A stretch of DNA of 64,000 nucleotides, taken from the NCBI GenBank assembly GCA_947034895.1, contig OX344763.1, positions 70,327,093 through 70,391,092 on the forward strand. Reading direction: 5' to 3'. Shown here piece by piece: positions 16,800 to 49,620 of the stretch (positions are counted from its first letter, which is position 1; every line of letters starts with the position of its first letter). The notes beneath the pieces were generated by a model. It was given only the letters and a program-made list of their open reading frames with translations. It was not told where the DNA came from and searched no databases. This DNA is from Rhytidiadelphus loreus (lineage: Eukaryota; Streptophyta; Bryopsida; Hypnales; Hylocomiaceae). Made by a program: the position numbers and the translations under genes.

Positions 16800-16894
16800 G
16801 TACACTACCTGTACATGAAGATGGAGAACAAAGAATAAGTCAATATCAGCAATTACATTTATCATTTAAAAAATGATACATGTTCTTATGAAAC

Positions 16895-22231: not shown

Positions 22232-23518
22232 GTGAGAACGGAACATGTCGGTAGTGATGGCAGAACTAGTGTGCAACGGAAGTCAGGGATTACCGCCCGG
22301 ATGATTAGTCCGGAAATCCCTGAGAATCCGAAACACCACCGGCAGCTGGAGGACGACTTGACGGATATGGGGTGTCTGGGGTTTCTAAAAAGACCCTGGA
22401 ACATCCGGAGCGAGGATATGATAGACGAGATAGTCTACGGCGCTCCCAATTAGTACCACCTAACCGTCAGGGGTCGTCCAAAGTCTTGGACAGTAGAAAT
22501 GTGGGCTGGAGTCTACTTCGCGTCTACTAGGGGATCCGAATGGGCTGGCCGGACGGAGAAGTTCGCGGCGGATAGATTCCGGAACCCGGCGGATCCAAAA
22601 GAGGGTTACACCGTGTCCGGCTGCCGGAACCCTAGGGACCAGAGACTGTTAGAGTTTCTCAGCCCCATCCTGTATCCGGAAAAGCCCAGCCGGATCACAG
22701 TAACTCTGGCAAATATGGTTTTCGGAGCTTTAGAGGAGAGAGGAAAACCGACCCCTAGACCAGTTAGCTGGGGGCTCATTATCCAGTCGATTGTGGATAA
22801 ACTTTCTGGAAACCTGGTGGGAAAAAAATCGAGTCCCATCAGTCCATACCTCCTCCACTTGTACCACAAGCAGGAGGTACTTAGCAGTCCGGAAGACATC
22901 ATCTACCGGCAGGGAGATAGCCTGCTCCGATACGGTCTTCCTCCGGATTCGGATCTGACGGATGAGGAGCCAGAAGAGGAGGAGAAGCCAGAACTAGAAC
23001 AAGACTCGCCGGACAGGCACGACTCCCGCCAGAAGAGCACGGATCCGGAATCAAGAGGGAAGAGCCAGCTTCCGGACCCTCTTCCATCCCGGAACATTGA
23101 TCCGGTTCTAGATATCTTCGAGTCCACAATCTCCTGGCTGCAGAGTCAGAAGGCATCAAACGACCGGATGGCCACTCTGATCCGGAGAGTCTGCACGACG
23201 TTGAAGGTAGCGGACGAGACGGAGATTGTGGAGGCAATCAACAATAGACTGGATCCGGAGATGGTTCGCCTGCTGGAGGGCCAGATCCGGACAGTGGAGG
23301 CGGAACGGGATCATCTTCAAAACCGCGCAACCTGGGCGGAAAGGGAGATGAACACCGCCAACAAACGGGCAACGGATGCGACGGAGCTGGTCCGGAAACT
23401 GAGGGACCTCATCGACCCGCCAGCAGATATCATCACCAGATCCACTCTTTATAACAACCAGATGACCCGGGAAGGTCATATTTCCGGAACCGGAGAGATG
23501 AGATCAGTCCACCGTTGA
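22232..23518 (+). CDS. Gag-like protein of a retroelement-like family, 3'-truncated copy, internal amber
   Basis: The frame runs through a TAG at 22451-22453. Protein blocks GCLGFLKRPWN, DPKEGYTVSGCRN, RRLLEFLSPIL-like, TVTLANMVFGAL and SSPISPYLLHLYHKQE each have partners in the minus-strand gene at 60.6-62.5 kb (GCTGLLERPWN, HPKDGYTMSECK, LEFLVPIL, TITLGNTIFDAL, SLSPFLYHLYHAHD). The C-terminal half is acidic then coiled-coil. No reverse transcriptase, integrase or zinc knuckle is seen. The match ends near 23.49 kb, lacking the Lys/Arg-rich tail of its paralogue, exactly where the element A polyprotein exon begins. The start codon is unsure (GTG at 22232). The function is unknown; gag-like is an inference from the context of its paralogue. 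Confidence 0.5.
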
Positions 23519-28197: not shown

Positions 28198-28351
28198 GAC
28201 TGGGCCTATAGAGGGACAAGTTGGCGATTTTCATGCTCTTGAGCAGTTTTGATTGAGTCGAATTGACTTCAGCCTGTTGCATACAGATTTGTAATATTTT
28301 TCATTATTCCTTCAATAAAATAGGAAGGGTTTTGTGTGCTTCTCTTAAATC

Positions 28352-28366
28352 AGCTCAAGTCGAGCT
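28352..28366. repeat. Element A palindrome 3' of the HAD exon
   Basis: AGCTCAAGTCGAGCT, 155 bases after the HAD stop codon and before the Ser/Pro-rich ORF. Confidence 0.8.
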
Positions 28367-28474
28367 TTTTTGTTTCCTGGTTTGTGCTATCCTTGTTTTG
28401 TAGTTATTCATGGATGGTGTTTCAAGTTCTCAAAGCAATGCAGTTCTGCTCGGTGGTTATGGTCTAAATATTAC

Positions 28475-29128
28475 TTGATTCCAGAGATCGGACGGACCGG
28501 ATTCTCCCAATGGAGATCATCACATGCGTCAGCGGATTCTATACTGGACTATGGGCAATACACAATCCTTAGTAGGGGAAATTTCCTCTGCTCAGCGGCT
28601 ATAGCAAACTCTTCAATGGACTACTCTACAAAGCCTGTGGATGACGGTGGGGTGGATAGTCCGCCAAATAATGGTTCACGTCTGCCGAAGTCCTGCTCGC
28701 CTTCTCCATTGCGATGTGGGAGGGGCCTTGCTTCTTGGTTATTACCGGTGGCCTCAGACAAAGCGCCTAAGAAGAGGTTGTATGAAGAGGCCACAACTCC
28801 AATTCCTGCACATGTGAGCAAGTCATTGGTGTCTGGTGGATATCATGATACTGCTGGATCTCGTGATACACTTGCTGGAGTTGCTTCTAGTAGTGCAAGG
28901 CGCTGTCCTACGTATGTCCTATCAAGGAGTGTCCGCAAGTCTAGGACACATGATGGGGTGCAACCAAAGCAGTGCGATGCGCGTCGTCTCGACGCATGGG
29001 ACCTCAAGTGCATTCAACGACAAATGCATCAACGGTGGAATGAGTACAAGTGGCCAAATACTGGATATAGTCGCGGACCTGACATTCTAAAGGCAAGGGA
29101 GCTACAGCGAAGTAAATCACACATATAA
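28475..29128 (+). CDS. Ser/Pro-rich protein downstream of the HAD domain in element A
   Basis: The frame is open from 28370 to TAA at 29126-29128; the recognisable part starts around 28475 and MDYSTKPVDD begins at 28615. VDSPPNNG and CSPSP align with the ORF at 1.2-2.1 kb, which has the same place after a HAD domain. The C-terminus is basic (ILKARELQRSK). No domain recognised. The true start is unclear and it could be a further exon of the polyprotein gene, the palindrome at 28352 then being intronic. No counterpart was found after the element B HAD. Confidence 0.45.
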   Translation: MIPEIGRTGFSQWRSSHASADSILDYGQYTILSRGNFLCSAAIANSSMDYSTKPVDDGGVDSPPNNGSRLPKSCSPSPLRCGRGLASWLLPVASDKAPKKRLYEEATTPIPAHVSKSLVSGGYHDTAGSRDTLAGVASSSARRCPTYVLSRSVRKSRTHDGVQPKQCDARRLDAWDLKCIQRQMHQRWNEYKWPNTGYSRGPDILKARELQRSKSHI

Positions 29129-30148
29129 TACGTGTTTATAGTGTAGAGTGGGAGTCTTCAGAGACGTACATGATAGAATTCTAGAAGTGATAATCTTGTG
29201 TGAATACCAGAGGTTCGAATGAAATATATTGAGGACTGCTCGGTAATGGTGTTTTGTATGTCACGTTATACCACAGTATAGACTAGCTACATGCTGTGCA
29301 TAGCAAACCGTTTAGTATTACAAACCGGGTAGTCAAAATGTCGCATCTTCATTGTAAGTGATAGTCATGCAATTAGAAGCTTGGGCGAGCTATCACATGG
29401 TGATTGAAGAATGAAGTGCATGTTCAATTTTGACACGGTTCTGGACACAAATATTATAGGGACAAAAAAAGGCAAGCGCAGGGTGGCTACTGCTTGATTT
29501 GTTTCTAAAATCTCAGTGTGTAGAACCATGTCAAACTTGAACATGCACTTCAGTTTTCAATCATGTGGTTGCTCGCTCAAGCAATCTATTTGTAGTGTCT
29601 AACACAGGTGGTGGTGATGTGACATTTAGCTACTAGGAGTGTAACAGTGGGCTATGGTTCCACGTAATTACATACCATTCTGCAATGTATTCATCAATTA
29701 TGTATATATCAGGTGAATTCTTTCTATTAATAGAATGACATACTGTTAATTCTATAAACCATTTCAAATCTTGCCTTTTCTAACTTTGTTTGGATGTCTT
29801 CGCATTGTGTTTTATGTGTTTTCTAACCTCAAAATCAACTCTATTCATCACTTAGGAGCTTCTAGACATTCTCAATTCATTAGACTATGACTCCCATTTC
29901 ACTAGAAAACTCCCAAAATATTGAATATAGTGTTCCGAGAGGTCTCCAGATGATAGATGCTAAAAGCAAACCAGCATGGCAAGAACCAGCATTGCAAAAA
30001 TCCATTGCATGAACTCTAAATTCATCTTTCAAATATCACATTTAAACATCATCCAACAAAGCATTGCCAATCAATTGACAGAATTTTACATTTTCACAAA
30101 TGAAAGCAATGACAACCTCGTTTGTCCTTGTATGTGGAGAAGGAGAAT
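29129..30148. other. Intergenic DNA between elements A and B
   Basis: Contains the hairpin below; otherwise no gene seen. The A/B boundary lies somewhere here; no terminal repeat or target duplication was found by eye. Confidence 0.4.
29379..29582. mobile_element. MITE-like imperfect palindrome, about 200 bp
   Basis: The left arm (29379-29445, starting GCTTGGGCGAGCTATCACAT) and right arm (29520-29582) are imperfect reverse complements, including GAAGTGCATGTTCAA and TTGAACATGCACTTC. No target duplication was resolved. Confidence 0.6.
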
Positions 30149-30168
30149 CATCTGGGGACATCCAGATG
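30149..30168. repeat. Element B palindrome (left-most copy)
   Basis: CATCTGGGGACATCCAGATG, matching the element B arms with a changed centre, downstream of the transposase gene. Confidence 0.7.
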
Positions 30169-30239
30169 GACTTCCCAAAGTGCTAACAATAAGGATGCAT
30201 CTAGAGGGCTCCAGACAAACTTAAGAAACTGAAGTATCG

Positions 30240-33200
30240 TTAAGGGTCCACCTCATTTGCCCTATTCAAATTCACTAAGGTAGCCTCCCTACTTTTCTTA
30301 GGAATTGTCCATGATGTTGGATCTACAATCTTGGACCAATTCGAATAAACTATGCAAGTTGCATCCAACCAGGTCAGAGGACTATTCTCAACAACCCATT
30401 TGAATTCCCGTACCAACAATTGCGGTATCTTAATTCCAAAGTACTTTCAGAGTTATCCGGTCGCCAATACTGAAGCAAGAACTTTCCGTAATTCGCATCT
30501 CCTTGTAGTCTACATATAGTGGACAATACTCTTCCTTGCCAAACAGCACAGATTTCTGGATCTTCAGGTCTCAAAAGAACCCATGAACCTGAAAGTATGT
30601 CAAGCCAAGGTCTGGATTGAAGCTTTCCAATGGTGCTTCATTTGCGGGGCCGTAGTATGGTTCTGGATCCTCTTCCTCAGGAATGATGTCTATAGGATTG
30701 ACCAAGAAAGTTCGACGAGGATTTTCATCGCGTATCATCCTCCAATCGTGTTGTGGCCAAAAGCCTTCCACCAACTCTGAAGGGTATTCAAGTAGTGGTT
30801 CTCTAAGCTCACACAGTACAGAATTCCAGTATTCCACATAAGGACCAAAGGCAGTTGCAAATCCCTCGCATTTAGACATCCCGTTTTTCCAGTACTGAAT
30901 GTACTTTTCTAGTCCTATCATCATAAAACCCTTGTTTAGAGTAGCTTTCCTTGCCATTTCAACAGCCTTTTTTCGATTTCCCGTGGCCTTGGGAACTTCG
31001 CTACCCCACATGGGTTTGAATGGAACAGGCTTCGGACAGCCTGGAGGGAGCTTCGTCCGTCCATGTGAATCTCTCTTCCAGAGGCATTAAGAAGGTTTAT
31101 CAGATGGTAGCCACTGTGAATCAACTGCTGACTTTTTATACTTCATGACGAGGACCCCTCACTATCCACATAAAATTTAAAAAGATGCATCTCCCCCAAT
31201 CCAATTAATCTAGCCGTCCCACTACTTTGGTATCCCTTTACGAACGACTTGAAATCAGCCACCTCTTGAATGGACTCAGGCATGAATGATTGCTCTTGCG
31301 ACTGTATGAAGGCTCTCATCAAGTCGACAACAACAAAAGTATTCTTCGTCTTCAAGGCCTTAGAGAGGTGGCTGAAATAAGCATCACTGTCTTCGTGAGT
31401 ATGTCCGACAAGTAGGAAACCAACTTGAATTTCCTTGAAGACTCCCCGCGCAGTCAACAAAGACAAGAACGCCATAAGGTATTGGTTCTTGTTATCCTTT
31501 GCCGAGTTGTCAAGTTGAAGATATGATTTCTCAGGAAGAGGAGAGGGTCCACGTCGAGAAGATGGTTCCACTAGGGTCAAACAATCTATACAACGTGATT
31601 TTCCTCTAAGCAATGCTTCAAACATAGGGTTTACTGGCGGGTATGGAAATAAGTCACCTGTCTCTTGAATCGCAGGACCCTCGAGTCTGCGAAACAATCT
31701 AGCCAACGACGAAATGGTGAAGTTTGAATCTCCTGACCAACACGACGGTGTATAGTGGGCATATGCACCGTCACCATGACCATGAGCTACCATTCCTGTT
31801 ACGCTCATCGGTATCTGCCCCAAACCTTGAGTAGCCTTTGTTGTCACACGCATCTTTGGTAAAGCTGTCTTTGAAGTATCCATCTTGTCGTGAATTACAC
31901 ATAATATGTCCTGCGGATTCCTTTTGGACTCCTCCCGCCATGAAGCATATAGGCGACGGCATGAGGCTTGATGATTGTGATGTTCAGTTCGTTGCTTCGA
32001 AAATTCCACAAATTCAGGACTTCTTTTGGGCGACTTTAGAAGGAAATGCTGCAACTGGTCACATACACTACACTTTGCAAACGAGCTTCCAACGGGCATT
32101 ATAGAAACACTGTTGAAATGCTCCTTCTTGATTCTACTAATTGTAGATTGGCTCACAGGCGGAAGGCCATAGTCTACATTTAACTGCAAAGAAAACAGAA
32201 GTATGCATAAGCTACAATTGAGCAAAAATGTCATGGAGAAGAGAACTGAACAACGAAGACAAACTAATTTGAATTAAAAAATAGAAGATATGCATGTCTC
32301 ATCTAGAGTGATCTAGTTGAGATTGAACCTAGAAAGGAAATTAGAACTAGTACCTCATTAGCCTCAACACGAACTCGTTTCCAGTTATTTCCAACAGGCA
32401 AAAATTTCAGAGTGTCCATTCGTCCGTGTCCGATGCCGCGCATTTGGTGGGGCATTTGGTCAGCGTTCTCGTCAATGATAGCTTTCATAGTTCCACTGGC
32501 TTGAACGGTTCCAATCCTTAGCCGTTTAATCCCTTTGTTTCCGTGTGTGCCAGAAACAACGCCGTCTTTGTACATTATCATATAACCATGGTTTGTGGAC
32601 TTCGAAATTCCATGAATTACGTACCAAGTCGTCATGCATATATCCAAACCCTCAAGAGTGATTACTTTCCGGTTCCGGTCCCCGCAGAAATTATGAATTT
32701 GGCCACCTGTAGCAATTCCATATTCGCGTCAATCCTCAAAGGACTTCAAATAGTATCTCTACCTCACAATCAACGTTTGTTCCTGAGGAAAGAACTGGCA
32801 ACACCCTCTACTGCAGCATGGGGAGGCACTAACCTTCCGAATTTCAGAGTCCGTAGTTTTCCGGGTGGCCAGAGAATCTGGGACGCATACACTCGGCTTC
32901 CGATTTATGAATCGATAAGGCGCTTTCTCTCTTCCTCCAAGATATGCTAAGGGATCTCCAACAACGGGAATGGCAGCGAAATAGTCAACCGTCTCCTTCA
33001 ACGATCGTCCACTAGGAAACCAGCAAGCTGATAATGGCCACTGGGCATGACTCATTATGGCGTCCATGTTTCCTAGAAAAACATCCAACACCGTTACACC
33101 CAAATACTCCTCACCAAGTACTCCGTCTTGAAAATGATCAATTGGCCTCCAACAAATTATTCGCCCGGCCGCCTCAACAAGGCCTGTAGAGTTCTGCAGA

Positions 33201-33406
33201 TGAACCTCGAGCCCCAACCAGTCATCTTGCGGAACATATGAAGAAGAATCCGTAGGAGGAGGTGCAGGTGTCTTTTGAACTTCTTGTGCTCTCCAAAGTA
33301 CTGTCCGATTTACGGCATCCAACATTGATGTAAGTCCCCTTTGGGACGGCGTGACAGGGATATTCTCCGCTCTAGGGACAACGAAAAGCGGCCGAACCAA
33401 GACCAA
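30240..33406 (-). pseudogene. DUF7869-type transposase/integrase-like gene of element B, decayed
   Basis: Aligns block by block with the element A gene: CCSRGCCQFFPQE, VITLEGLDICMTTW, CSVCDQL, VIHDKMD, MVAHGH, YLQLDNSAKDNKN, and LLVGHTHEDSDAYF. An intron is visible at 32184-32353 (GTACTAG ... TTTGCAG). Damage: TAG at 32759-32761 and a TGA soon after, in a frame that then continues; a frameshift after KFYVDSEG near 31145; and a TAA near 31089, close to where the element A copy has TAG. The C-terminal part (VEYWNSVLCELREPL) again matches element A. The start is not an ATG and lies at a probable acceptor, so at least one upstream exon is missing from this call. Divergent to the element B polyprotein gene, as in A. 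Confidence 0.7.
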
Positions 33407-33866
33407 AACACCCTACTCTATTGGGATGTCCACCCCAAGCCACTGGCCCTGTGGACTACCATCCACAACCAACCCTCCACCAACCTCACCGAATCCCGCA
33501 GCAAAAAGCTTAACTTCATCTCCATTTCCAAATAAACGAGCTCGAGCGGTCGACTCTTTGGAGCCTTATCCTGTCGAGTGCTCAATCGAATACGGGATTA
33601 CATCATTGCATTCACTGAAGACATCCATGTCAAATTCCTTGCAAATAAGCAAGGAGTCCTGAGATCCCTTCGAATGTGATAAATGCCTAACAATCAGGGA
33701 AACATATAGAAGTGTGAGAAACAAACTGACATACAAGCATGTTGAGGATAAATGTGACATATGGTGATTTTCACTTCATTTGTTGTGTGATGATTCAGAC
33801 ACATGAAGTTATTGTCGAAGGAAACAAGTACAATCGGAACGACGAATTGAACCCAAAGATATTAGG
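33407..33866. other. Non-coding, probable leader intron of the element B transposase
   Basis: No gene seen; it leads into the palindrome cluster. Confidence 0.35.
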
Positions 33867-34316
33867 CATCTGGATCACTCCAGATGAACAAGACTCATCT
33901 GGATCACTCCAGATATGGGATGGTCCATTCATTGATTCCAATGCAAGGCACACAGATAAGAAGACTGGTAAGGTACCAACCAATACCCGATTGGAGTGAT
34001 CCATATAACATTCACCATCAGGAGTGATCCAGGTACTATTCTACATCTGGAGTGATCCAGATGCTACTCTACATCCGGAGTGATCCAGATGCTATTCTAC
34101 ATCTGCAGTGATCCAGATGGTATTCGACATCTAAAGTGATCGACATAGTAGTCAACATCAGATAGCGTACAATCAACATCATCACTCATAAAATAGCAGC
34201 AAGGGTGCCTCATCGAGCAAACAATTTTAGCAGAAGCCACCGACTTCTTCGGTTCAGGCTAGTCCAACTATGGCCACATGGCCACAGCATAAATTTCATC
34301 TGGATCTATCCAGATG
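33867..34316. promoter_or_regulatory. Cluster of six CATCTGGATCACTCCAGATG palindromes upstream of the element B transposase
   Basis: Copies at 33867-33886, 33896-33915, 34044-34063, 34072-34091, 34100-34119 and 34297-34316, plus decayed copies near 34012. The centre is asymmetric and appears in both orientations (GATCAC and GTGATC), while the CATCTGG/CCAGATG arms are kept. Same relation to the gene as the element A cluster. Confidence 0.9.
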
Positions 34317-36159
34317 AAACTATATTATACGAAATGATGAAACCATATATCGAAATCGACTAAAAGTAGAATGGATTGAAGTTCAGTACCCTTGAAATGT
34401 AATGTACTCTGACGCATCTCACACGTGTGCCAGTATTTGTATAACAATACGCAAACAGGTAAATCGAATTCACATACGTCTACCGTTGATTGAATAATAC
34501 TCTGGAAGTGACCGTCATATATCTCTAAACCTCCATGCTTGTTTTATGTTTTCAACAGTGGTTTCATCACTATGCTGCACTCTTCTGTCCGACCAAATGA
34601 ATTGCATTTGAATAGAATGTGCTCAAAGTCAGTTGACACGTCTGATGATAACAAGGGAATTTGTGGGACATCTTTCTAGGCTGATTCATTGAAATTACAT
34701 TGACGACCTGAAACTTAGAAACTGCAGTACGAAGAAGTGACAATGTCTTACCTTCTACACAAAACACCGTCGACAAAGAAGGCCTCCGCGCGAGCACCCG
34801 CAACACACCCAAACTTCGTTATCCCAAATCGCCACGGCTTGGAGGTGCGTGATGCGCACGAGAATTCAGTGGAATTCAAAAATAATGAGAATGACTAACC
34901 ACAAGAGAGTTGACCTCCCAGGAGGACGAAGATCGTTTTCAAAATTCTGCAATCCCGCCAGAATTGTGCACGGGATACCTTGGCGGCGGATCTTCGTTGT
35001 GGACTTTGACTACCGGAGATTTGTCAGCAAATTAAGGCATTATATAGTAGTCGATGTTCATTAAATGTGCTCGTGGATTCGGAATTTGACTTCGTAAAGT
35101 TCCAATTCCATTGGCTTTGATGGATGGTGCACTCGATTCCTATTTGATCATGATTTGCGTCTTCAATTTAAAGCTTTGTGATCATATTAAGTTCGTTACA
35201 TGATAATGTAGTATTTCATACACACACTTGAGAACTTCCTCTTCAAATATCTCTGACACCAGTGAAATCCATTTCATTTGTTTCAGGAAAAAAAAAAAAA
35301 AAAAAAATCTCTGACATTAGTGATCTCTTTCAAATTCCAAAGGTTTAGGGTGCAGTATCCCAACAATTCTAACAAATAACATGATACAAGGTAATATGGA
35401 GTTTCTACTAAATAACAAAATATTTCTAGAAAATAAGGAAATAAACCGTCAATTCGGAGGTTCCGGTTTCCATATTCTGTACAAATGGCAACAACCATTT
35501 ATTACACTAAGCACGTAAGATAATCTAGGGACATAATGAATCAAGATTTTGATTTCACCCCTTTGCAAATGAAATCCATTTCATTTGTTTAGGGAAAAAA
35601 AAAAAAATTGGCAAAGACACGTGTCTGACAGAAGCTCTAGGAATTGGGACTTCTGAGTTTTGATCCACTGACAGAAACTTCTGAAATATCCGGGATCCAT
35701 TCCACTGACAGTGAGACGATTAATTCCATCCACAATTACTTTAATTAGGGAAGTCACGGGACTTTCAAAGCTAGGAATGATTGTAGATGCTTTCTCTGCA
35801 CACCGTGTCAATGAAGATTACACGAACTGACATATTTTTGGTAATATGTTTTATCCAAATTTAACGTAGTTCCATTGCCTAGGAAACAATAAAATTACAC
35901 CCAATACAAAAGGGGCTTGGATAGTTATTTTGAACGGTAACTATTTTAAAGTTATTGAATTTCGACAGGTCCAAGCACCAATAATGTACACAACAAAATT
36001 TAATTCATTGCATGTATGAGATTTAGAAAATTTAAAAAGTAATATATATGAGACATTGGGAAATCAAATGAGTCAATAATCTCAATGGTTGAATCATTCA
36101 TTCATTGAATACCCTAAACCGGTATCTAGAATACGAAAAAATGTAAGCAAAAGATTGGG
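34317..36159. other. Intergenic DNA of element B
   Basis: No gene seen. There is an A-run at 35288-35307 and a repeated phrase GAAATCCATTTCATTTGTTT at about 35266 and 35571, each followed by an A-rich run, like two copies of one short repeat. An E2F-like TCCCGCCA lies at 34953-34960. Confidence 0.4.
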
Positions 36160-36390
36160 TGATCTATGCTGGTCATTTGAAGATGTACCATGAGCATCAG
36201 GAGATGTCTCTACAACATCTGGAGATTTTTGAAGAACAGCTAAAGAAATTTGCAGATCATGCACAAATTTATGCAAGTCATAGTGAAATGTACGCAAAAC
36301 ACTAGGAAATGCTTGCAAAATATTGGTAGATGTATACAAATCATAGAGAGATGTACGCAAAGCATTTATAGATGTAAGGAGAACATTGAA
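36160..36390. repeat. 21-bp tandem repeat, 11 diverged units
   Basis: Units such as AGATGTACGCAAAGCATTTA(T) are spaced exactly 21 bp from 36160 to 36390; because 21 is a multiple of 3 the array stays open as 7-residue repeats in one frame. Not called a gene: no flanking coding signal. Confidence 0.8.
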
Positions 36391-38519
36391 ATCTATAGTT
36401 ACAAATTAAAACTTCAGAATCTAGAATCTCACTGGAAGAAAAAATGAATAAATTCTTTGATGAGTTCCTGAAAGAGGTGTCAATTTGACTTCAGTACTTC
36501 ACACTTAACATATTAATTTGTCAAGAAATCATTTTGTAGGATCATAAATTCATAAAGCGCTTCACTGTCTTGTTGAAAGTGAATGATTATTATCTCCACT
36601 GACATCTATGTAGGCTTTTTTAGCCCTTGAGTTCCCAAAAGTGAAGTTCTGTCATTCACTGAATCAATGGCCCTCTTAAATTGTTCCCCAAGCCCTGTAA
36701 TGGGCATAGTGCTTGCCAAAATAGAAATGAGTTGAAAAATCAGAAGCAAAGTAAACAACTATGAAATTAGGAGGAATTTTAATTTTAAATAATTATTTTA
36801 TAATATTCTCTGACATGTAAAATCTAAGCCATGTCAAATCTAGTTGTAGTTAAATTCCCTTGAATTTGAACATGTTTTTTATAATTTCATTATACTATTT
36901 TGGACCATTTAGACATTCATTTCCAATTTGTTGGCCAAGGTTTACTTACATGTTTGATTCCCTTTCTTTCCCCTTTTTCTTCATATTTTTTCCATTATGT
37001 GGGACGGGATAGGCTCCCGTTCTTTTTTGTCTATGATCTCACAGCCTTGTCTAGGCTAGACTCATCTTTCCTTTAAATAATGCATATAATTATAACTGTG
37101 TCAAAGATTATTAACTGAAGACAGTCTTCTAAGTATCAAACCGTCTTTAAATTGATCCATTATTTTCATTTTGAAGAATGTCTTGGATGTTACAAAAGAA
37201 TCATAAATGATTCTCTGTAGTGTAACTTAAGTTTTATTATTTCAATTTAATAGCACAGTACAAAGTCTTATGCCATGTTGTATTAAATGTACAACTTTCC
37301 TAAAATTGTAGAGGAAGTTTGGAAATCAATGCTAAGCTTTGAGGGATCCGTACATGTACCATTGTACCTCAGTCTGTGACTGAAAAACAAAATTATACTT
37401 TTGTTAGTATAGAATTTTTTAAAATTTAATTTGTACAAATCTACAAATATTTTCAATGAATTTAATTCCTTAATATAATGAATATATTAGATTGATTTTT
37501 GTTCCTATATAATGATTTGTTTGATGGGAAAACGAAGGTGTACCACATTTATACACATTATATAACCACACTTTTGGGTGTACACTTAAAGAAATGATAA
37601 ACATCATACTATTCATTTTAGAAGCCTTTCATGAATAATTGCTACAATTGTAGAAAGATGCATTGTAGAAGGAATTGTATAGACCATTTTTGGAATCGAT
37701 ATGAATTAGTTTCAATTTAAATTCTATACACTTGAGTTTCATTGGTGGTCAACATTATTATTTTAGACTCACCCCATAAATATGTCAATAAATAAGTGAT
37801 TATTATACGCCGAAAATCTTGTTTTGGTTGATTTTTTACAGTATACTAGGCCTATGTATTAAATTCAATATTATTTTTAAAATGAGATTCATATGATTGA
37901 ATGTGTAATTATGATTAAAATACTCAATCATTATAATTTGTCATGAAATGAAATGCGTTGATTTGAAGCATAGACATTCAATATTTAAATGATTATCAAT
38001 CAATCATGGAGATTTGATTTATATGAACACAATGAATTTCTTATCAAGTGTTCCAAAATTACTAGAAACCATGACCCGGCCTCAATTAGAAAATTGAATA
38101 AGCAAATCCATAAAATGTAGGAGTATGTAATATTAATAATTAAGTGAGAAGTAGGCAATTATATAATTATACCCAATTTTAAGCCTTCAATGACTAGAAA
38201 GAAGTTTAAATTCGGTCTTGTTTTCTTAAGCAATGTTAAAGTTTAGTTTAACATTATACGGGGCTTCTAATTAATTGTTTCTTTAAACCAATGCATTACT
38301 CTAATGCTCTTTATTAAAGATAATGATATAATACAAACTTCTATGTACATTAATCTGATTTTCTGTAATATAATCAATGAAAGTTTGCAACTTAGAATCT
38401 TGAAAATGACATTCCACCAAAAAAATACCGGATGAAAATGTAGGCCCTCTCGAAGAAAGTAGAACCAATATATGAGTTGTAAAATAATAATGGCTAATAA
38501 AAAAAAATGTAGTATGAAT
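36391..38519. other. AT-rich DNA, no gene seen
   Basis: Very AT-rich with only short chance frames. Confidence 0.4.
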
Positions 38520-39090
38520 TGTAGCCAAGGCTTTGGATCAAGCCTTGGCTTATCGACTAAGTTGTATTGGCTAAACCAAAAAAATGTAGTATGAATTGTA
38601 ACTAAGGCTTTGGAACAAGCCTTGGCTTATAGAGTCCTCTTGGCTAATAAAAAAAATGTAGTATAAATTGTAGCCAAGGCTTGGGATCAAGCCTTGGCTT
38701 ATAGACTAAGTTGTATTGGCTAATCCAAAAAAATGTAGTATGAATTGTAGCCAAGGCTTTGGAACAAGCCTTGGCTTATAGAGTCCTATTGGCTAATAAA
38801 AAAAATGTAGTATAAATTGTAGTCAAGGCTTGGGATCAAGCCTTGGCTTATAGACTAAGTTGTATTGGCTAATCCAAAAAAATGTAGTATGAATTGTAGC
38901 CAAGGCTTTGGAACAAGCCTTGGCTTATAGAGTCCTATTGGCTAATAAAAAAAAAATGTAGTATGAATTGTAGCCAAGGCTTTGGAACAAGCCTTGGCTT
39001 ATAGAGTCCTATTGGCTAATGAAAAAAATGTAGTATGAATTGTAGCCAAGGCTTTGGAATAAGCCTTGGCTTATAGACTGAGTCGTATTG
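38520..39090. repeat. Tandem hairpin array, about 75-bp units in alternating pairs
   Basis: Eight units begin near 38524, 38600, 38673, 38750, 38822, 38899, 38973 and 39045. Each holds an inverted pair AGCCAAGGCTT ... AAGCCTTGGCT around a TGGATC/TGGAAC centre. Spacing alternates about 77 and 73, with alternate spacers (GACTAAGTTGTATTGGC versus GAGTCCTATTGGC), so the higher-order unit is a 150-bp dimer in the first six copies. Confidence 0.9.
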
Positions 39091-40124
39091 GCTAAGTAAA
39101 CCAAAAAAATGTAAAATTCATTTTAACCAAGGCTATTGGACGGGAATAATGAATTGCAGTGCCTAACTATCTAAAATTTAGTGTGGATTGACTGTAGGGT
39201 CGTGTTATGGAAATAGTATATTTGTGCTATTGACATGCAATCCATCGACTACAAATAATATAGTATGAAAATGTGGGCCCTCCCTTGGCTATAATAAACT
39301 AGTTCTATAGTATCTTTTCAATTCCTGGGAAATGAATGAAAGGTATTAATAACACTTTAGACGTTCAAATTGACCCCTAAATAAAGTTGTGACCATTTTT
39401 TGGCCATTGAATAACAAAAAATTCTTCTATGTAAGTTGTACAAAACTGCAAATATTCATCCTTCAGGTTTAGGATGGAAAAGGGTAGTTTTCTACAATAG
39501 TTTCATTCAATCATTACATAATGTCTGAGTTATGAATTAATAATTTTGGAATATTTTAAACCAAGGATTCAAAAAATACCAAAATGGAGGATTTATACGG
39601 TCAGTGGATAAATAATTATTTTGCCAAAATATAATGGTTTTGAATTGCTTAGTCTCTCCAATTATACCAATTCAATGTCTTTATGTTAAAAAGAAAAGAA
39701 CTTGAGAATTGAAGCAAATTAAATTAATGAATTGTCACGGCATGCATACCAACATTTTTAGATTGAAAGAAAACGTAGATGTAGCAAAATAGAACCTAAA
39801 CCCTGAAAATTAGAGGAAGACAAAATAATTAGAAAAAACTAATTAACCCCCGTCCCCCCCCATGACATGAATGAACTTCATTGAAGACCGTCATTCGTCA
39901 TTATGGGAGGGACGGCATGAGAAGCCCTGTCAACTCCAATTGTGCCACTTCCGCCCTCGGTGACACCTCTCCTTCTCCGTTTTGTTCATTTCTGATGCAG
40001 AGGCACGGAGGAAAGACTTAAGTACGTGAGTTTGCTTGTGGGCTTGGACACAATCAGGTTTAGGATTGTTTTGTAGGGTTTCAGAAGGGAGGCGTGCAGA
40101 ATAGAGGTGTGTAGGAGAGAGGCG
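39091..40124. other. Intergenic, GC content rising from about 39.85 kb
   Basis: No gene until the uL2-like exon. The GC-rich stretch 39.85-40.12 kb may be a promoter and 5' untranslated region for it. Confidence 0.35.
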
Positions 40125-40226
40125 ATGGCTGGCAGAAATTCAGCAGGGCGTATTACTGTTTTTCATCGAGGAGGTGGATCGAAGCGATTGCATCGGAAAA
40201 TGGATTTTCAACGTAGCCTTGGTTAG
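40125..40226 (+). CDS. rpl2: Short exon or fragment of mitochondrial-type ribosomal protein uL2 (RPL2)
   Basis: ATG at 40125 begins MAGRNSAGRITVFHRGGG, followed by SKRLHRKMDFQRS: the conserved N-terminal part of uL2, of the mitochondrial (AGRNSxGRITVFHRGGGSKRL) rather than plastid type. uL2 binds 23S-type rRNA at the peptidyl-transferase region. The frame closes after 33 codons (TAG at 40224-40226), but TTG then GTTAGAAG at the end could be a splice donor, so this may be exon 1 of a nuclear gene for mitochondrial uL2 or a captured piece. It has a GC-rich 5' flank unlike the surroundings. No following uL2 exon (GIVERIEYDP block) was found downstream. A plain insertion of mitochondrial DNA is the alternative. 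Confidence 0.6.
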   Translation: MAGRNSAGRITVFHRGGGSKRLHRKMDFQRSLG

Positions 40227-40310
40227 AAGGGTGAGACTCAATATTTCTAGAACGGAGCCATAACTATGCCGCGAGAGTGTGTTTTAGGCAGGAGGGAATC
40301 AACTTTTACG

Positions 40311-40445
40311 TGCGGAGGAGCGGCGATTTACGAGCGGAAGAGTGAGGAGTCGCGGAGGAGCGGCAATTTACGTGCGGAAGAGTGAGGAGTCGCGGAGGAG
40401 CGGCGACTTGCAAAGGAGCGGCGACTTGCAAAGGAGCTGTGACTT
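40311..40445 (+). repeat. 42-bp GC-rich tandem repeat
   Basis: GCGGAGGAGCGGCGATTTAC-type units at about 40311 and 40353, then shorter derived units (GAGCGGCGACTTGCAAAG) to 40445. The reverse strand reads as an Arg/Ser-rich frame, which I treat as a by-product. Confidence 0.75.
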
Positions 40446-41720
40446 CTTGTTTTGCGGCATGCAGCTTTAGTTCCAAGTCGGTGTGGAGGTAGTGGAGACG
40501 CGTGAGGTGGAGGGAGCCGAAGATTGGAGGCTAGAAGTTCTGGTAAGTTACAACACACTGAAATATTCCTACCTGTAAGTCTTCCCGTGCTTTCTATGCT
40601 TGCTGTGATTCTGTGCTTGCAGTTCTCCTTAAATGACTACTCCACAGTTAGAAAGTCAGGAATAGGGTCTTTTGTTATTTCCTCTTGCAACATGCTTTTC
40701 CACAACACAGAAAGTTAGGTACACGTAGTTTTCGCTAGTTTTATTTCGCTGTTTGCATTTCGATCTCATCAGAAATAAAATTAGTTGTTGTGGACGGTAG
40801 TTACATGGAAAGCTCACAAAACAGTCTTCATTTGTGTCAATACCGCATTACTCTGACTCTAGACTATACAACTATGTACTACTGTCTCCACCTTCTGTTT
40901 TCACCGAATGCAAATCTAGTTCCTCACATGTTTAGTCCTCTCTTTCTGGCCGTTGATAAAAAAAACCTACTCTTCTGTGTACTAGTGGCCTTCAGTTTTC
41001 CCGAGTGTGCAAAGCACAGGACTTTCTACCATTATTGTTAGTTCTGCAACTTATTGAAACTACAAGGACTGTCCTCACTCAAACTATCTATAGCATTCAC
41101 TTTGTTGTTTCTTGAAGGACAGTTGTTAGGAATTTCATTTGTTCTAATTGTTACTTCATCATGCTTTGATTTCTCTAAGTGTGCACATTAGTGTTCATTA
41201 TTTCATAGAGGCAGGGGTGGTTTACAACCTTTATCATCTGGAGATTTCCAGGAGTTGCCTCCTGCCTAGACAGTTTGAAATTGTTTGAAATTGTTTGAAA
41301 ATAATTGTTTGAAATTAATGTAGTTCACATTCTCTAATTGTGTTTGCAATTGTATGCACTACTAAAATTTGTGAGCATCGACTTTCGTGGGAAGTACTTG
41401 TTAATATTTTCCGTTATGTCAGTGATTCATTTGAATCAATATGCACAATTATAGTTTTAATGAATTATGTTTTAGACAGACTTGTTGACATCGTATATGA
41501 ACTAAGTATTTGTACTATAATGCTGGTTGTATACAGGAAAGCGATCGCGGGCAGTCAGTGACAAAGAGAATGGGAACACGACGAGGCACGGAAACAGCAC
41601 CGGTGTGGAATAACTCGTAAGTTTCAGCACATTTAACCCTATTACCATGGAAATTGCCCTATATCCGCGGACCTGGAGGTCTCCAGATGCGCAGAATTGG
41701 ATAGGGTTCAAAGGTGATTT
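40446..41720. other. Non-coding, possible intron following a GC-rich exon
   Basis: A donor-like TTCTG|GTAAGTT occurs at about 40540. No protein-like frame follows. A short GAAATTGTTT repeat lies at about 41277-41315. Confidence 0.35.
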
Positions 41721-42401
41721 CATCTGGAGAGATCCAGATGACCAAAAAAAAAGTAGTTCCACGAATGCAAATGTCTGTCACAATAAAATCTGAAACAAAG
41801 ATCACTAAGGTAGGACATCTGGATCAATCCAAATGATGCTCCCATACTAGGACACCTTGAGAATAGCATCTAGAATACAACACATCGTACTTCAATAGAG
41901 CGGAATGATACCAACTAGTCCATTTACTCATCCAAAAATTGTGAGATACATTCTAAGCCATCTGGAGTGATCCAGATGGTAGTCCTAGGATATGTAACGG
42001 CTAGTGAATCACATACTACATTAGTAGTGTGGAATGACAATCATTAGTCCATTTACTAAAATTGAAATCACGGAATCCCTAGTTATATTCTTGGTCATTT
42101 GGAGTGATCCAGATGATAGCCTCAGGATCAGAAGTAGCAAGTGATTTCAATATTATCCAGCAACGTGGAACAATAGTGATCACATAATTTACCAATATTG
42201 ACATCCGGGAATGGCAAGTTGCATCCCCATTCATCTGGAGTGATCTAGATGGTTGTCTCAGGCTTAAGAGTAGCGAGTAATTTCTGCCACCGTTCATAAA
42301 CAATTCCACAATCCGAAGAAATATTAATTGTCTCTTAGAAACGCACGCAGTTAGACATGCCAAAGGCATTCTTCATTCAGTCATCTAGAGTGGTCCAGAT
42401 G
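41721..42401. promoter_or_regulatory. Cluster of six element B palindromes upstream of the polyprotein gene
   Basis: Copies at 41721-41740, 41816-41835, 41959-41978, 42096-42115, 42232-42251 and 42382-42401, mostly CATCTGGAGTGATCCAGATG with one or two changes, spaced about 95-150 bases. They stop 74 bases before the first recognised exon, so they sit in its promoter or leader intron. Confidence 0.9.
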
Positions 42402-43836
42402 ACTAAGATATGAATAGTATTTGATAGACCACGCTGCAATTAAGTGAACTAACCAGCGTTGTCGAATTGATGCAGTGATGAGTTCCTTCAAGAGGGTCCA
42501 CAAGACGCCTGTCCAGTGAAACTTGCTCCCTACTGTGACGGGTGGGTTTATACATTTCGTTATGTCGGAAAATTACACCCCGCGGTAGTCTATAGGTGGT
42601 TGACAAAGGTCACGGAATGGAGGGTTCAATGGAAGCAAGAAGCAGATGGCCGCGTGCGGATCGTTCCGAAACTCATAAATGAAATGAAAGTGCACCATGA
42701 CACTGGTCTTGAAATTCAGGAAATGCAGGGACTTGACAATGACACTGTGCTCTTGGTCATTGAGGAGAAAGTTCCGGGATCGGGAGGAACAAGAATATAC
42801 GGGTTAATCCTAGATTATAGTACGATGGAGCTAAGTCATTGCGAATCACTACTGTCACAAGCATTACTAGATACCAAAGACGACATCCCGAAGTGGACAC
42901 CCAAAGAAATGGAAGTCTAGTGGGGGCTCATTGTAGAGTCTCGCGATGATATAAATCCCTCACAAGCTATAGTGTCGGCGATAGTTGCAACACCGTCGCC
43001 AAAGAAGAAGGGAAAGAAACGGGTTTCACTTGTTGAAGCGCCAGGAGACAAAACTGCTTCCGACGCTGTTGCTAGTAAACTTACAATTTCCGCGTGCGTT
43101 GCAATGAAGGAGGCTGAGATTAAGAAGCTTAACAACAAGCAAATGAAGGTGATGAAGGCATTGTACAAGACTCACTTCGATTGCATGTACAAATGGAAAA
43201 AATAGCCATTCGTCAACGCAGCTGGTAAAACCCTCCGAGTGCATTTCGACTACTTGCACAAAGGTCCACCAGGTATCCTAGTGTATCGTGGCATTGAAGA
43301 TACTCGATTGCCTGGAATTATAAACAAGGCGTGCTTGGAAACCGATTTTGATGCAGCTTGGAGAGTCATCATAGTCCTTCCCATAAAGATAGGGCCATAC
43401 GGTGCCGATGGGAAGGCAAGCTACTTTGACACCTGCCCAAAGGTTGATTCCATTATGAGCAATACCAACTATTATATTATTGGGGGCCAAAACACTGTGG
43501 TGGCATATAGGACTCTGGTGTTGCAAGGCGAATTTCCCGAGGCTGATGTCAAGGACGCCTCGTGCTTTAAAATCATTCCAATATTTGCTGCAAGAAGCAA
43601 ATTCTCGGACGTCATACACCTCTCTCGAGCTCTTAACCAGAATGTCGCTGGAGAACAGAAGGAGCAGTCATTCACAAAACAACTTCAAATCGCCAGAGTG
43701 AAATGGAGGGAGATGGGAAGTCCCCAGCCCGCGTACGGTGGCCGAGCGCACACTCCTGCTTATCTAGTAAGTTCCAAAGATAGTACTGCATCATGGTCTA
43801 CCAAATTACATGTTGGACTGTAATTCATGCTGCAAC

Positions 43837-44005
43837 CATCTGGATCACTCCAGATGGTCATGTTTATTAGTCCAATGTTACTGCTAACATGAGTGATCGA
43901 AATCATTCTCTCGATCACACAAAGTAAGACATTTGGAGTTAAACCATAGGGATTGTCATATTCAATCACTTCATCTGGATCACTTCATCTGGATCACTCC
44001 AGATG
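43837..44005. repeat. Element B palindromes inside an intron of the polyprotein gene
   Basis: CATCTGGATCACTCCAGATG at 43837-43856 and 43986-44005, with a half copy at 43972, all inside the intron from GTAAGT at 43767 to about 44103. Element A has its own palindromes in the corresponding intron. Confidence 0.9.
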
Positions 44006-45745
44006 GTTTTGTGGGTTATTACTAATGCCGTTCGGAAGTTCATTTTTGACGCAAATGGAAGTCATTCTTCCCACTGATTTCAACCATTTTCACCTCCATG
44101 AAGGGGACCAAATCCGCAAAATCCAAAATCCCGTTGTTATTTATGGAGGATGACACCGACATAAACAAGTGGATACAGATTGAAGTGGACTACTTGTAAT
44201 ACAAGCTCTCTGGTAATGAGGACAAACTACCCGATCCATCGAAAGGATTGTGGAGGCCATTGAGTCTCCATGATTTCAAGACTCTTTATGGGCTTCGGAA
44301 AGAGGATATCAATTTCCTGGCAGATCAGGTGCAAGCACAAGAGATTTGTGTGAAGAGCTCGAAGGCTAAGCAACGAGGCATGGCCCCTTCATTGCCTACT
44401 CTAGTTGAGGCTGGCTCTAGAGAAAGGTATATCCGCATCATGAAGAATGAAATGATGTGCCACTACCGGAAAGTCCATCTTCCTAGCAAGAAGCCAGAGT
44501 ATTATCAATACCCAGAAGCTGAATGGGAGAATTTAACCACCGAGAAGAAAGTTGGCCGTGCAGAATTACAACTCTGGATTGATAGAGCTTTGGCAACGGA
44601 GGTAGGAAAGATTTGGCTCGACGGTCGATTGAAGGGTTTGAACAAGACATGTGACCCTTCCGACTGTCCAAAATTTGTGATAGAAATGTGGGAAGCATTC
44701 ATTAAGGCACGAGCCCAAGTTGCGGTGGCAGAGGCGATGGAGAAGGGATTTGCTGAGAAGTACCTGTCGAAGATCATGGACATGAACATGTGGAATATAA
44801 GCGGAATTCTTATGCAACCAGATGTTATAGCTTGGCGTGGCGAGGATAAAAGGCACTTGTATTTCTGGTACATGTTCAAAGCCACGAATACCGGACCACG
44901 GGCTACAATTTTGGAGGATTAGAATCTACGTCGACTGTTTGATGCCCTCGAATGCCAGGAGAAGAAGGTCACTTCAGTTCGGTCCCCTGCCGTTCTCATG
45001 ATAGACGCGCAGGGTTTCCACGAGGTTGTGGCTCACCTGTACAAAAGGAAGTTGGAGTTAGCTCATCAACTTTGGGACTGGCATGTTATTCACTCCATTG
45101 CGGGCCCGGAAGACGGCTTTCTAGAAACTACGACTAGAAGCGGGTTTGTTGTGTTTGTGATTTTCTGCTTTGGGTACAATGAAGCAGAGAGCGCTCGGAG
45201 CCGATTCAATTACTACTTCCCCTCTCAACAAGTGTATGATGCTGTGTACAGGTCAAATGATATTCCAGAGGATGTTAGCTCATATAAGTGTCGTGGTGTA
45301 TCATATTTGAGGGCAAACTCTACACTTGTGTTATTTGGAGGGTTAATACGGGATGACATGGTGCTTGTCAACGTGAACGGGGGTGCTAAGATTACCCACA
45401 TGGGACTGGTAGGGACAATCAAAAACTTACTTGTTCTTGTCTTAAGTAGAATTTCTTGCCTTGACGTATAATAGCTAATGATTTTCTTTGTGAACCAATG
45501 GGGCGGTGTGAAGGTGCTGGAGGTATTCGATTCTGCGGTGGCGGAGAAGGCTGGGCAAATTACTGCAAAACACATTGCGGACCAATTTACCATCACTGTC
45601 CATAGTGAACCCCAATCGATATTGAGGTTTTGATAGCAAATACCACTAAATCCCCGGAGAATACCGAACTGAACTACTTTGACGCGACCGACCTCGAGCC
45701 TCGACAGCGTATAGAACCTAAGGCGAGTATCCCATGACCTATATT

Positions 45746-45765
45746 TATCTAGAGTGATCCAGATG
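45746..45765. repeat. Element B palindrome in a short intron
   Basis: TATCTAGAGTGATCCAGATG in the intron 45721-45825; two changes from the consensus. Confidence 0.75.
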
Positions 45766-46324
45766 ACTTTTTATAGATTGTTGTTGTTTGGCCTCAATCT
45801 GATGTGGTATTCACTGTTACTGTAGGTGACTTCTCCCCCACCCCCTGTGCGGCCTAAGAAGTTGAAGAATCCAACTCCTCCAGAAAGAAACCTGGTAGAA
45901 CCTCCAGTGCCTTCAGTCCCGACAGTGGGGACGAACAAGAAAAAGAAGAGGAGAATTTTGGAGTTGGATGTGGATCCTCCCTAAGTTTCAAATCGTAAGA
46001 AGGCGACTAAACTGAAGAAGAATCCTAATACTCCTACGCATCACGTGAAGTAGAATTTGGCTGCATTGTTTAAGGAATCTGAGAACACAACAAGGATGCC
46101 TAATGTTTCTTCACAAACTTCGGAGGAATTTGACATGCTGAATGCCGAGGACAATGCGGTTGAGGAGGAAAGAGATGCAGCTTCTGCTTTACTTCATTGT
46201 GCATCGGGTGTACTGGGTGCTCACACCTCTAGATCTTCAGTGCTCAAATCTAATGATCGGGGGGTCTGTGTTGGGGATGACCCTAACTCCGCTTCCCTAC
46301 GTAATGATGGAGTTGTCCCTAGTG

Positions 46325-46344
46325 CATCTGGAGCACCCCAGATG
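46325..46344. repeat. Element B palindrome inside coding sequence
   Basis: CATCTGGAGCACCCCAGATG lies in the linker exon. It is the only copy in an exon, suggesting former intron or site sequence absorbed into coding. Confidence 0.7.
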
Positions 46345-47714
46345 AATCCATCTTCAATTGGTGCTCAGGTGATGTCTGACACTATTCTGAATGATACTCT
46401 AGGGGACTTGTGCCCATTGAGTCCTCCTTCTAACCGCCCTAACGAAGCAAACGTTACCAATAAGGTTAGTTTTAGGTGCTAGGCTTAGGATCGTCTGTCA
46501 TTTTTATGTATGATTAAAGTCGGTAGTGACCTCTTGATTTGTAATATCACGCTGAATTCAATGTGACATTTTCAATTCCCTCTTTGTTTCATGTGACTTT
46601 TGAGTAATTCCCTTCTTGCTACTTGTTTCTCAGGATGCTCCATTAGGAGTGATCGACAACTCTTGTATTGAAGTGTTGAAAGTTTTGCCTCCCGACCTGA
46701 ACAACAGGAGTGAGGTTGGGGGTGAGAAGTCAGAGGGCATGGAGGTGGCGAAGGGTGTGGAGGTCGATGTATTAGAGGTGGAGGAAGAGAATGTGGTAGC
46801 GGACACTAGGATTTTTGTGCCCGCGGAAGTAAGGGGTGGTTTGGTGGAAGAGGAGACGGCTGTTGTAGTGGAGGTGGAGAAGAAGGAGGAGATGAAGGAG
46901 GACAAGGAGCCTGATTCGGGCGTCGCGAAAGGTGCTTGAGGTGACCGTTTGTTAGTGTTTTGCGTACTATTTAGTACTTCGGTTTAATTATCTCCTATAT
47001 TTTGCCTCTAACTAAGTTTTCTCCTTGTTTTCTACAGATCCTGCACCAGCTGCCTTGACAAAGGCGACCATATCATGCAAGGTACCTAGAAGGCAATACG
47101 TTGTGGTCCTAGACTTAAATGGACTTCTTATTCACCGTAATCATCACAATAGTAAGGCAGGCTTTATACGGAGACCGGGTCTCACACTTTTCCTTGACTT
47201 GCTGTATTCTAAGGCACGCATAGTATTTTGGAGCAGTATGACAGAGAAGAACATGTGGCCCTTACTGACCAAGGTGCTGACGTCTACTACTTTTGGTCCT
47301 AGAAGAGTGACTTTTATTTCGCAGTTTTCTTACACTCCGTCATTGTTTAAAAACCCAGACGATCCAAATAAGCCAATCTTTCCGAAGGACTTGAGAACTT
47401 TGGTTGAAATGGGTGAAGTAAAGTCTGTACAAGATGTCCTCTTGGTTGATGACAGTCTGGTTAAAAACCTATTGAACGATGTTAACAACGCAGTTCATCC
47501 GACAACCTAGTCTGGTCAGGTCGGCGATAAATTCTTGGCTGCAACGCTGCGGCCATGGTTTGACGGTCTTTTCCTGTCCAACGAAGCTGTGCCGGTTTAT
47601 GTCAAGGCCAACCCACTTCTCGGTTGTTAGAACCCAGTAGATCGGTTGGACAGTCTAGGAATTAACATTTTGAAGGGTGTCATTCTTAAGACTTAGTTCT
47701 GTTAGGGTGCCGTT

Positions 47715-47734
47715 CATCTGGATCACTCCAGGTG
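47715..47734. repeat. Element B palindrome 3' of the HAD exon
   Basis: CATCTGGATCACTCCAGGTG, just beyond the end of the polyprotein gene; the matching place in element A also has a copy. Confidence 0.8.
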
Positions 47735-48869
47735 CTATATTTTGAGGCATTCCTTCACCTTGGACACAATACTTCATCTGTTGCTGATATTACTGAGTGC
47801 AGCAAGTATGATATTTTGTATCATTCTGTAAGTTTTGTAAATACACTTTTTTTAAAATCATCTCTTAAAAATTTTATACTTTGAGATGACGGAGGTATTG
47901 TGGTATTTCTGTCAATAGTTTTATGTATTTGGCAATGGAGGCACATGTTGCTCAATTACATGGGTAGATGTAGGAGTATTAGATAAGTGCAGTGATTAAT
48001 TTAATCTATAATATCATTTTTTGGACTTTTAATAACACTGCACACTTTTGTCAGTATTTGAATTACAATAGTAATGGAATTGTATTGGTGATGTGCTCTC
48101 TTTTCTGGGAATTGAAAGTGGGGATTTTATGCTTTGTAATGAGAAATACTCAATTTCTAGAGTAAGTGTCATCTTCTCTTTGCAAAGCACCCTTCTGATC
48201 AATTCCATTTGGTAATTCACAATTGGAGGCCTCCAGTTGATTGGACGTAAGCATCTTGTTGCTTGGAGGTCTTCCGTTTGCACTAACTATGGTTGGACGT
48301 GGGTCTTTGTAGAGGGTGGTGATCATGGTAATGACAGGTCTTTTGTGCGTTGAAGGTGTTGTCATGAATGTTCGACAAAGCAAAGACCTTGAGGTCTTCC
48401 GGGATTTTGTTCGTTGTATTCTGTCAAAGACTTCCGTTGGTCTCTGATCAAACATGACCACTTCAAAATTGGAGGAGGTCCTTCCTCATATACTTTCGAA
48501 GGATTTTATTAAGTTGTTATTTTTTTATTAAAGGGTGTGACGTACCGTGCGACTCGGACAAATACCCCAATAGACGCGATCTCTTCACGTATCTCTTTAG
48601 TAAGACTGCAATGTGCAACTTGCTCAGAAATCGCACCTTTGTGTTCATTGATGTGGATCCCCTAAACTAGAAGCAGAATTCTATAATACCCCCGCTTGTA
48701 CATATTAGTGATACCCGACTAGTAGATTTGAAGTAGACAACCTTAGAAAGTGCTTTCTTTGTTTCCAATGGCACATGCCTACTCTTTCATGTATGTAAAT
48801 GAATAAATGGTCCTGACCCCACCTTTCTTTATTACACAACCATTGTGTAAGTATTTGTGTGATTTTGAA
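47735..48869. other. Intergenic; one protein-like patch
   Basis: Mostly non-coding. A short frame at about 48536-48670 reads like protein (ending RTFVFIDVDPLN before TAG) but I cannot assign it; it may be a remnant exon. Confidence 0.3.
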
Positions 48870-49620
48870 GGGATTACATCACAAGGTCTCCAGATATCCA
48901 ATTCCCAAGTTCACTATTGGAATTGTTAAATGAATGTATGATATTGAGTGGATGATATCAGAAGCTCTCTAGATGTCCAAGTTCCAAGTTTAGTGTTGGA
49001 ATTGTCAAATGAATGTGTGATATTGAGGGGATGATATCAGAAGCTTTCCAGATGTCCAAGTTCCAAGTTTAGTGTTGGAATTGTCAAATGAATGTGTGAT
49101 ATTGAGGGGATGATATCAGAAGCTTTCCAGATGTCCAAGTTCCAAGTTTAGTGTTGGAATTGTCAAATGAATGTGTGATATTGAGGGGATGATATCAGAA
49201 GCTCTCCAAATGTCCAAGTTCCAAGTTTAGTATTGGAATTGTCAAATGATTGTATAATATTGAGTGGATGATATCAAAAGCTCTCCAAGTTCCAAATTTA
49301 GTGTTGGAATTGTCAAATGAATGTGTAATGTTAAGAGGATGACATCAGAAGGTCTCCAGGTCTTCAATTTCCAAGTTCAGTGTTGTGATTTTCAATGTGT
49401 AATGTTAAGGGGATGACATCAAAAGGTCTCCAGGTCTTCAATTTCCAAGTTCAGTGTTGTGATTTTCAATGTGTAATGTGGAGGGGAACACATTTGAACA
49501 TCTCAAAATCCCCAAGTTCCAAGTTCAATGTTAGAAATGTCAATTTCTAATTTTAATGGGATGACATCAGATGATCTTGAAATCTTCAATTTCCAACTTC
49601 AATGTTGGAATTCCTCCATT
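48870..49620. repeat. 79-bp tandem repeat, about 9 units
   Basis: GATATCA starts at 48954, 49033, 49112, 49191 and 49270 (79 bp each), then 49341 and 49415 as GACATCA (71 and 74 bp). Middle copies are nearly identical; end copies are diverged. The unit includes CCAAGTTCCAAGTTTAGTGT and TGGAATTGTCAAATGAATGT. Confidence 0.9.

Follow-up and report, generated by a model that had tools for sequence, protein, structure and literature searches.

Clade-specific palindromes in the noncoding DNA of DUF7869 transposons from the moss Rhytidiadelphus loreus

Two nested transposons and their genes

The stretch of DNA analysed here (the window) comprises 64,000 nucleotides of the moss Rhytidiadelphus loreus (contig OX344763.1, positions 70,327,093 to 70,391,092) and contains two transposons, elements A and B, each of which carries a palindrome of its own, repeated in noncoding DNA. 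The two elements follow the same plan, with a gene for a DUF7869 protein on one strand and, across an AT-rich spacer, a divergently oriented second gene (gene 2) that ends in a NIF/HAD domain (Table 1). The DUF7869 profile (Pfam PF25273) was matched in A and B with 137.7 and 141.8 bits against a Pfam cut-off of 26, and the named relatives of the A protein come from Physcomitrium patens and Ceratodon purpureus. We infer a transposase role for this protein from the terminal inverted repeats (TIRs), the target-site duplications (TSDs) and the copy number of the elements; in the protein model the part that would form the RNase H-like catalytic core of a DDE transposase mostly falls below a pLDDT (predicted local distance difference test) of 50. 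Scanning pieces of A and B against Pfam returned only DUF7869 and NIF above the cut-off and no methyltransferase; methylation had been among the suggestions of the initial annotation.

The two elements are not adjacent: A sits within B, because two other B copies (L032 and L036) carry the uninterrupted site and continue unbroken across the B/A junction of the window. The left end of B lies where homology with these copies starts (13054/13055). The right end at 49961 is based on the TIR match at 49933-49961 (ATGCCACATTTAACTA) together with the GACA duplication; among the other B copies, the alignment of L035 reaches 49007, where the stretch read ends, and that of L033 only 48703. Target duplications are 4 bp long in both elements (n = 2). 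In-frame stops occur in both genes of A (in gene 2 at 22451-22453), and the window copy of A looks degraded. The AT-rich spacer of B holds a tandem array (38488-39140) of ~74-77 bp units with CCAAGGCTT..AAGCCTTGG, which is longer in locus L030 than in the window, and two units of a 79-bp tandem array in the right end of B (48777-49437) contain a TCCAGATG half-site.

Table 1. Features of elements A and B and of their palindromes in the window.
Feature	Position	Strand	Details
Four tandem imperfect T-class palindromes	1021..1165	+	3' of another HAD exon (3-824, plus strand)
TSD GACA, left of B	13051..13054		
Element B (transposon), split by the nested element A	13055..49961		TIR ATGCCACATTTAACTA..TTTGGACTTTG at both ends
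TSD CCGA, left of A	13237..13240		second copy 29935-29938
Element A, nested in B	13241..29934		TIR AACACTATATTCAATATTTTG
A DUF7869 gene	13959..16865	-	PF25273 E 2.6e-41; one in-frame stop 14706-14708
Five A palindromes upstream of A DUF7869 gene	16893..17402		16893, 16999, 17177, 17330, 17384
A gene 2 exon pieces	22193..28197	+	predicted ParB-like fold exon 23685 to ~24192; HAD/NIF 27367-28197
Two A palindromes, intron after ParB-like exon	24203..24280		
Three further A palindromes	25734..28368		25734, 26765, 28350
B palindrome, 3 mismatches	30149..30168	-	3' of DUF7869 gene, ~0.4 kb from B left end with A removed
B DUF7869 gene, putative transposase	30571..33662	-	exons 30571-31086, 31143-32207, 32303-32728, 32759-33662 (approximate); PF25273 E 4.7e-40; homology to A
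B palindrome, 3 mismatches	32300..32319	-	exon edge/intron of DUF7869 gene
Seven B palindromes upstream of DUF7869 gene	33867..34316		33867, 33896, 34016, 34044, 34072, 34100, 34297; partly a 28-bp array
Six B palindromes, gene 2 intron 1	41721..42401		41721, 41816, 41959, 42096, 42232, 42382
B gene 2 exon pieces	42471..47640	+	ParB-like motif YYIIGGQNTVVAYR ~43470; HAD/NIF exon 47016-47510; Pfam NIF E 6.2e-10
Three B palindromes, gene 2 intron after intron 1	43837..44005	+	43837, 43972, 43986
B palindrome, intronic	45746..45765	-	motif search
B palindrome-like copy within coding exon, 2 mismatches	46325..46344	+	motif search
B palindrome 3' of HAD exon	47715..47734	+	motif search
TSD GACA, right of B	49962..49965		

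Palindromes in the window and at related loci

The palindrome of element B, CATCTGGATCACTCCAGATG, was searched for in the window with up to three mismatches and shuffled sequence as the chance control. It was found in 21 places, five of them exact, against a mean of 0.02 and a maximum of 1 in the shuffles; the 22 raw matches reduce to 21 places since 34297 was scored on both strands, and the copies at 43972 and 43986 overlap. All matches are confined to positions 30149-47734 and cluster upstream of the DUF7869 gene, within the introns of gene 2 and 3' of the HAD exon, in keeping with the initial annotation, which had counted about 19 copies at these positions. The asymmetric centre reads GTGA in nine copies, TCAC in six and otherwise in six, so both orientations occur, as had also been noticed. 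Exon-like spans, whose bounds in this test are approximate, hold only two of the 21 copies, one of these at an exon edge, compared with a mean of 9.3 on circular shifting; an overlap as low as that observed was reached in 115 of 2861 shifts.

A genome-wide count was made for the B motif. The exact 20-mer occurs 25 times in the 407-Mb genome and the reversed control not at all. Twenty-four of these sites lie in B copies, namely the five in the window and 19 in other stretches that align to the window B at ~91-95% (one of the 19 starts in the final two bases of the stretch read). The remaining site is in a relative, L063, whose match to B consists of two short segments (71% over 169 columns and 80% over 81 columns). 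In its exact form the motif is thus confined genome-wide to B copies and one relative, and in the stretches read it was not common to unrelated repeats. The palindrome of element A is a different one, TCAGCTCGANTCGAGCTGA, and occupies 10 places.

In order to survey other DUF7869 loci, PF25273 was searched in the genome (150 scored of 1804 first-look candidates), and a non-random sample of twenty 10-kb and twelve 2.2-kb stretches was chosen. Eleven of the 10-kb stretches (L018-L028) carry a third palindrome, class T (TATCNTCGANTCGANGATA), mostly upstream of the DUF7869 gene. Among the 2.2-kb stretches, eight are of class T, two (L046 and L048) carry a class D palindrome, TCAGAGCGnnCGCTCTGA, and in two (L038 and L041) no palindrome was found. 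The 10-kb stretches of another DUF7869 group, which is set apart by the start of its profile match (position 6) and has frames of 916-1084 residues, contain no palindrome at any of nine loci (L009-L017); additional long open frames, without a Pfam match above the cut-off, lie near three of these (L011, L016 and L017). When 39 stretches (35 loci and four pieces of the window) were counted at up to two mismatches, 27 had a single class and 12 had none, and no stretch combined two of the classes T, A, B and D. Of 14 stretches with a ParB-like exon, selected from 150 scored of 928 candidates, eight have a perfect AGCTCGANTCGAGCT in or beside the following intron, and the other six show degenerate forms by eye.

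The palindrome that the initial annotation called private to each element is therefore clade-level: the four classes never mix, but 19 loci share class T, and the nine loci of the other group, L038, L041 and the remains of a third element have none. These remains (element C, 52000-62353, minus strand) derive from another gene 2, with an N-terminal piece (61439-62353) ~40% identical to A gene 2 and the ParB-like motif YDGNHRRIAWM near 55650; no repeated palindrome family was found between 52 and 62.4 kb. The T-class copies at the left end of the window number four at up to two mismatches and none in a stricter half-site search. Elsewhere in the window, a CACTA fragment (tnp2, Transposase_21) lies on the minus strand just beyond the left end of B (11177-12088), and a dense block of imperfect repeats with CTCCTCG/CGAGGAG palindromic units spans 5953-8190.

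Agreement with protein clades and maintenance of the motif

The 11 full-length class T DUF7869 proteins are 61-98% identical to one another, and identity to them falls to 48-51% for A, 38-42% for B and ~34% for D; eight further T loci, known as fragments, each share 82-100% identity with one of these full-length proteins. The palindromes of A and T have the core TCGANTCGA in common and differ in their outer bases, and those of B and D are unrelated motifs. On a DUF7869 tree of 36 rows (L038 omitted; several rows are short fragments, long branches lead to B and D, and A and B are represented by one row each), the class labels need four changes for five groups, which is the minimum and was equalled in five of 200 shuffles; class T alone needs two changes, since the motif-less L041 falls inside T. 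Position 5 of the T half-site is a purine in 6/8, 5/10, 6/7 and 8/9 half-sites of L022, L023, L027 and L047 (25/34 in total), whereas the 15 other T loci have a pyrimidine there in almost every half-site. The four purine loci together with L041 form one starred clade (99/100). Palindrome class agrees with DUF7869 clade, and the wobble base leans with subclade, so the co-variation check proposed in the initial annotation came out in its favour.

Because the motif differs between families along with the proteins and is not common to unrelated repeats in the stretches read, the best reading is self-recognition, an idea already raised in the initial annotation, which would have evolved convergently and would work through a DNA-binding protein that the element encodes. 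As judged from sequence and by analogy, the palindrome is, by a narrow balance of probability, a clade-specific recognition site of a transposon-encoded protein that would act on its own family in the manner of VANC proteins (see below). Several observations weigh against this. Since common descent likewise gives agreement of class and clade, the tree by itself is no proof of recognition. Between recent B copies, the motif and its flanks diverge about alike (0.92-0.97 vs 0.94-0.98), as is expected if those copies are dead. Lone half-sites CATCTGGA are located near both ends of B (13132, 29945, 49047 and 49126), and the weak copy at 30149 also comes close to the left end once A is removed.

The lack of extra conservation between recent copies, and the arrangement of part of the copies in tandem arrays, would suit functionless tandem duplication, in which motif class tracks clade by descent only. 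However, comparison of four units of the array in intron 1 of B gene 2 gave 90% identity for the 20-bp motif and 49% for the spacers, and copies are scattered over several introns. The upstream regions of seven class T loci were compared in 21 pairs, of which 15 gave no match, four gave only short matches (at most 22-69 bases), and two, both of close relatives (L018/L019 and L022/L023), aligned at length. Each of the seven loci has nevertheless retained the palindrome, and alignment of upstream DNA between the subclades that keep it mostly fails. The motif has been maintained over the long term, and we consider duplication without function very unlikely.

A second alternative is that the palindromes are sites at which the transposase binds for transposition, that is, subterminal repeats, such as the TnpA sites of En/Spm elements. 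The many copies in both orientations and their clade specificity along with the DUF7869 protein are compatible with it, as are the half-sites and weak copy near the ends of B. On the other hand, the full copies are internal, in introns and upstream of the gene, and palindromes are missing from the initial 3.6 kb and the final 1.5 kb of A as well as from the final 2.2 kb of B. Because the ends of A and the right end of B are without palindromes, transposase sites, which the initial annotation had listed, become less likely, and we regard this explanation as unlikely.

Of 117 unique T sites, 95 have the same base at position 5 in both halves (shuffling within loci gave a mean of 64 and a maximum of 79), a statistic weakened by the kinship of the copies, and position 9 shows no excess of symmetry (50 vs 52 expected). 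The symmetry at position 5 agrees with a DNA-binding dimer that has two types of site. It would also be found if the palindromes formed hairpins with ~8-bp stems and 2-4 nt loops in transcripts, regulating splicing or RNA fate, and the location of sites in introns and untranslated regions would accommodate this. Yet the T sites show no preference for G-U pairs over mismatches (6 vs 16 sites), only three compensated pairs were seen among 93 arm substitutions in 82 B copies, the symmetric sites also fit a DNA-binding dimer, and the copies are related by duplication. RNA hairpins appear the least probable of the alternatives considered.

Candidate binding protein and comparison with known systems

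One exon of A gene 2 is tentatively predicted, from weak evidence, to adopt a ParB/sulfiredoxin-like fold, although sequence-profile searches matched no ParB chain or family; the ParB hint of the initial annotation survives as a predicted fold and not as a profile match. In ParB the arginine box that binds cytidine triphosphate is GERR. The corresponding position reads GQHS in A, GQNT in B and GNHR in the C remains, and none of the three matches GERR. The palindromes might be loading sites from which a ParB-fold protein, clamped around the DNA, spreads along the element, as in bacterial ParB-parS and Noc-NBS (Noc-binding site) systems, whose palindromic sites are of similar size. The moss elements differ from these in being eukaryotic transposons with as many as 29 degenerate sites within one 10-kb stretch, no recognised ParA and an altered nucleotide-binding box, and loading of this kind seems distinctly unlikely.

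CACTA (En/Spm) transposons have TIRs ending in CACTA, a 3-bp TSD and a tnp2 transposase. Their TnpA motifs resemble the moss palindromes in being multiple, short, present in both orientations and read by an element-encoded binder (a putative one in the moss). The TIRs of A and B, however, do not start with CACTA, the TSD is 4 bp, the protein is DUF7869 and the full palindromes are internal; TIRs, TSD and DUF7869 do not fit a CACTA identity. Kolobok elements are DNA transposons with a 4-bp TSD, as A and B are, but duplicate TTAA, and the CCGA and GACA duplications do not fit this identity either. Unlike Kolobok and other transposons with a 4-bp TSD, the putative transposase of A and B matches only DUF7869 in Pfam.

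The closest parallel is found in the VANDAL elements of Arabidopsis, which are Mutator-like. According to Hosaka et al. (2017; PMC5735166), VANC21 binds YAGTATTAY in the noncoding DNA of VANDAL21, where the repeat arrays occupy introns of VANC21 and VANB21 as well as the region upstream of VANA21, the transposase gene, and vary between subfamilies. The moss elements share with the systems described there and by Sasaki et al. (2023; PMC10398659) a family-specific short motif that is dense in noncoding DNA, in the accessory gene introns and upstream of the transposase gene, as well as tandem arrays, motifs that vary between related families, and C- and T-type site variants. The concentration of a short family-specific motif in introns and transposase upstream regions that marks VANC-type systems is thus seen in the moss, and so is a motif class that changes with the element proteins, though common descent gives the same pattern. 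The moss elements differ from VANDALs in DUF7869 and the 4-bp TSD, and their motifs are 18-20 bp palindromes, whereas no word beginning with palindrom- appears in the main text of either paper. The candidate protein combines a predicted ParB-like fold with a HAD domain. The layout matches that of the VANC21 targets, in an element that looks unrelated and is distinguished by its palindromes, DUF7869, 4-bp TSD and ParB-like/HAD protein.

Under the self-recognition that we favour, a transposon-encoded protein would bind the site arrays in the transposase promoter, the accessory gene introns and the 3' region, and binding would switch on, or keep open, its own family alone, in the way that VANC proteins act on VANDALs in Arabidopsis. 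The binder may be the gene 2 product, with its predicted ParB-like fold and HAD domain, the other candidate being the transposase, and the effect of binding would be activation or anti-silencing. A broader proposal, possible but doubtful, is that moss DUF7869 transposons evolved such self-addressing independently of VANDALs: a ParB-fold/HAD protein would read clade-private, parS-like palindromes in noncoding DNA and relieve host silencing, with palindrome and protein diversifying together by degrees, from the wobble base to the outer bases to the whole motif.

The name DUF7869 was not found in the literature searched, and this proposal, if true, would give a lead to the function of DUF7869 elements. 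Sequence-specific anti-silencing by transposons would then not be peculiar to one Arabidopsis group, and would have re-evolved in an unrelated transposon group, in another plant lineage and from different protein parts. With many DUF7869 loci and at least four palindrome codes, the stepwise co-evolution of a DNA-binding protein and its site may be traceable within one genome.

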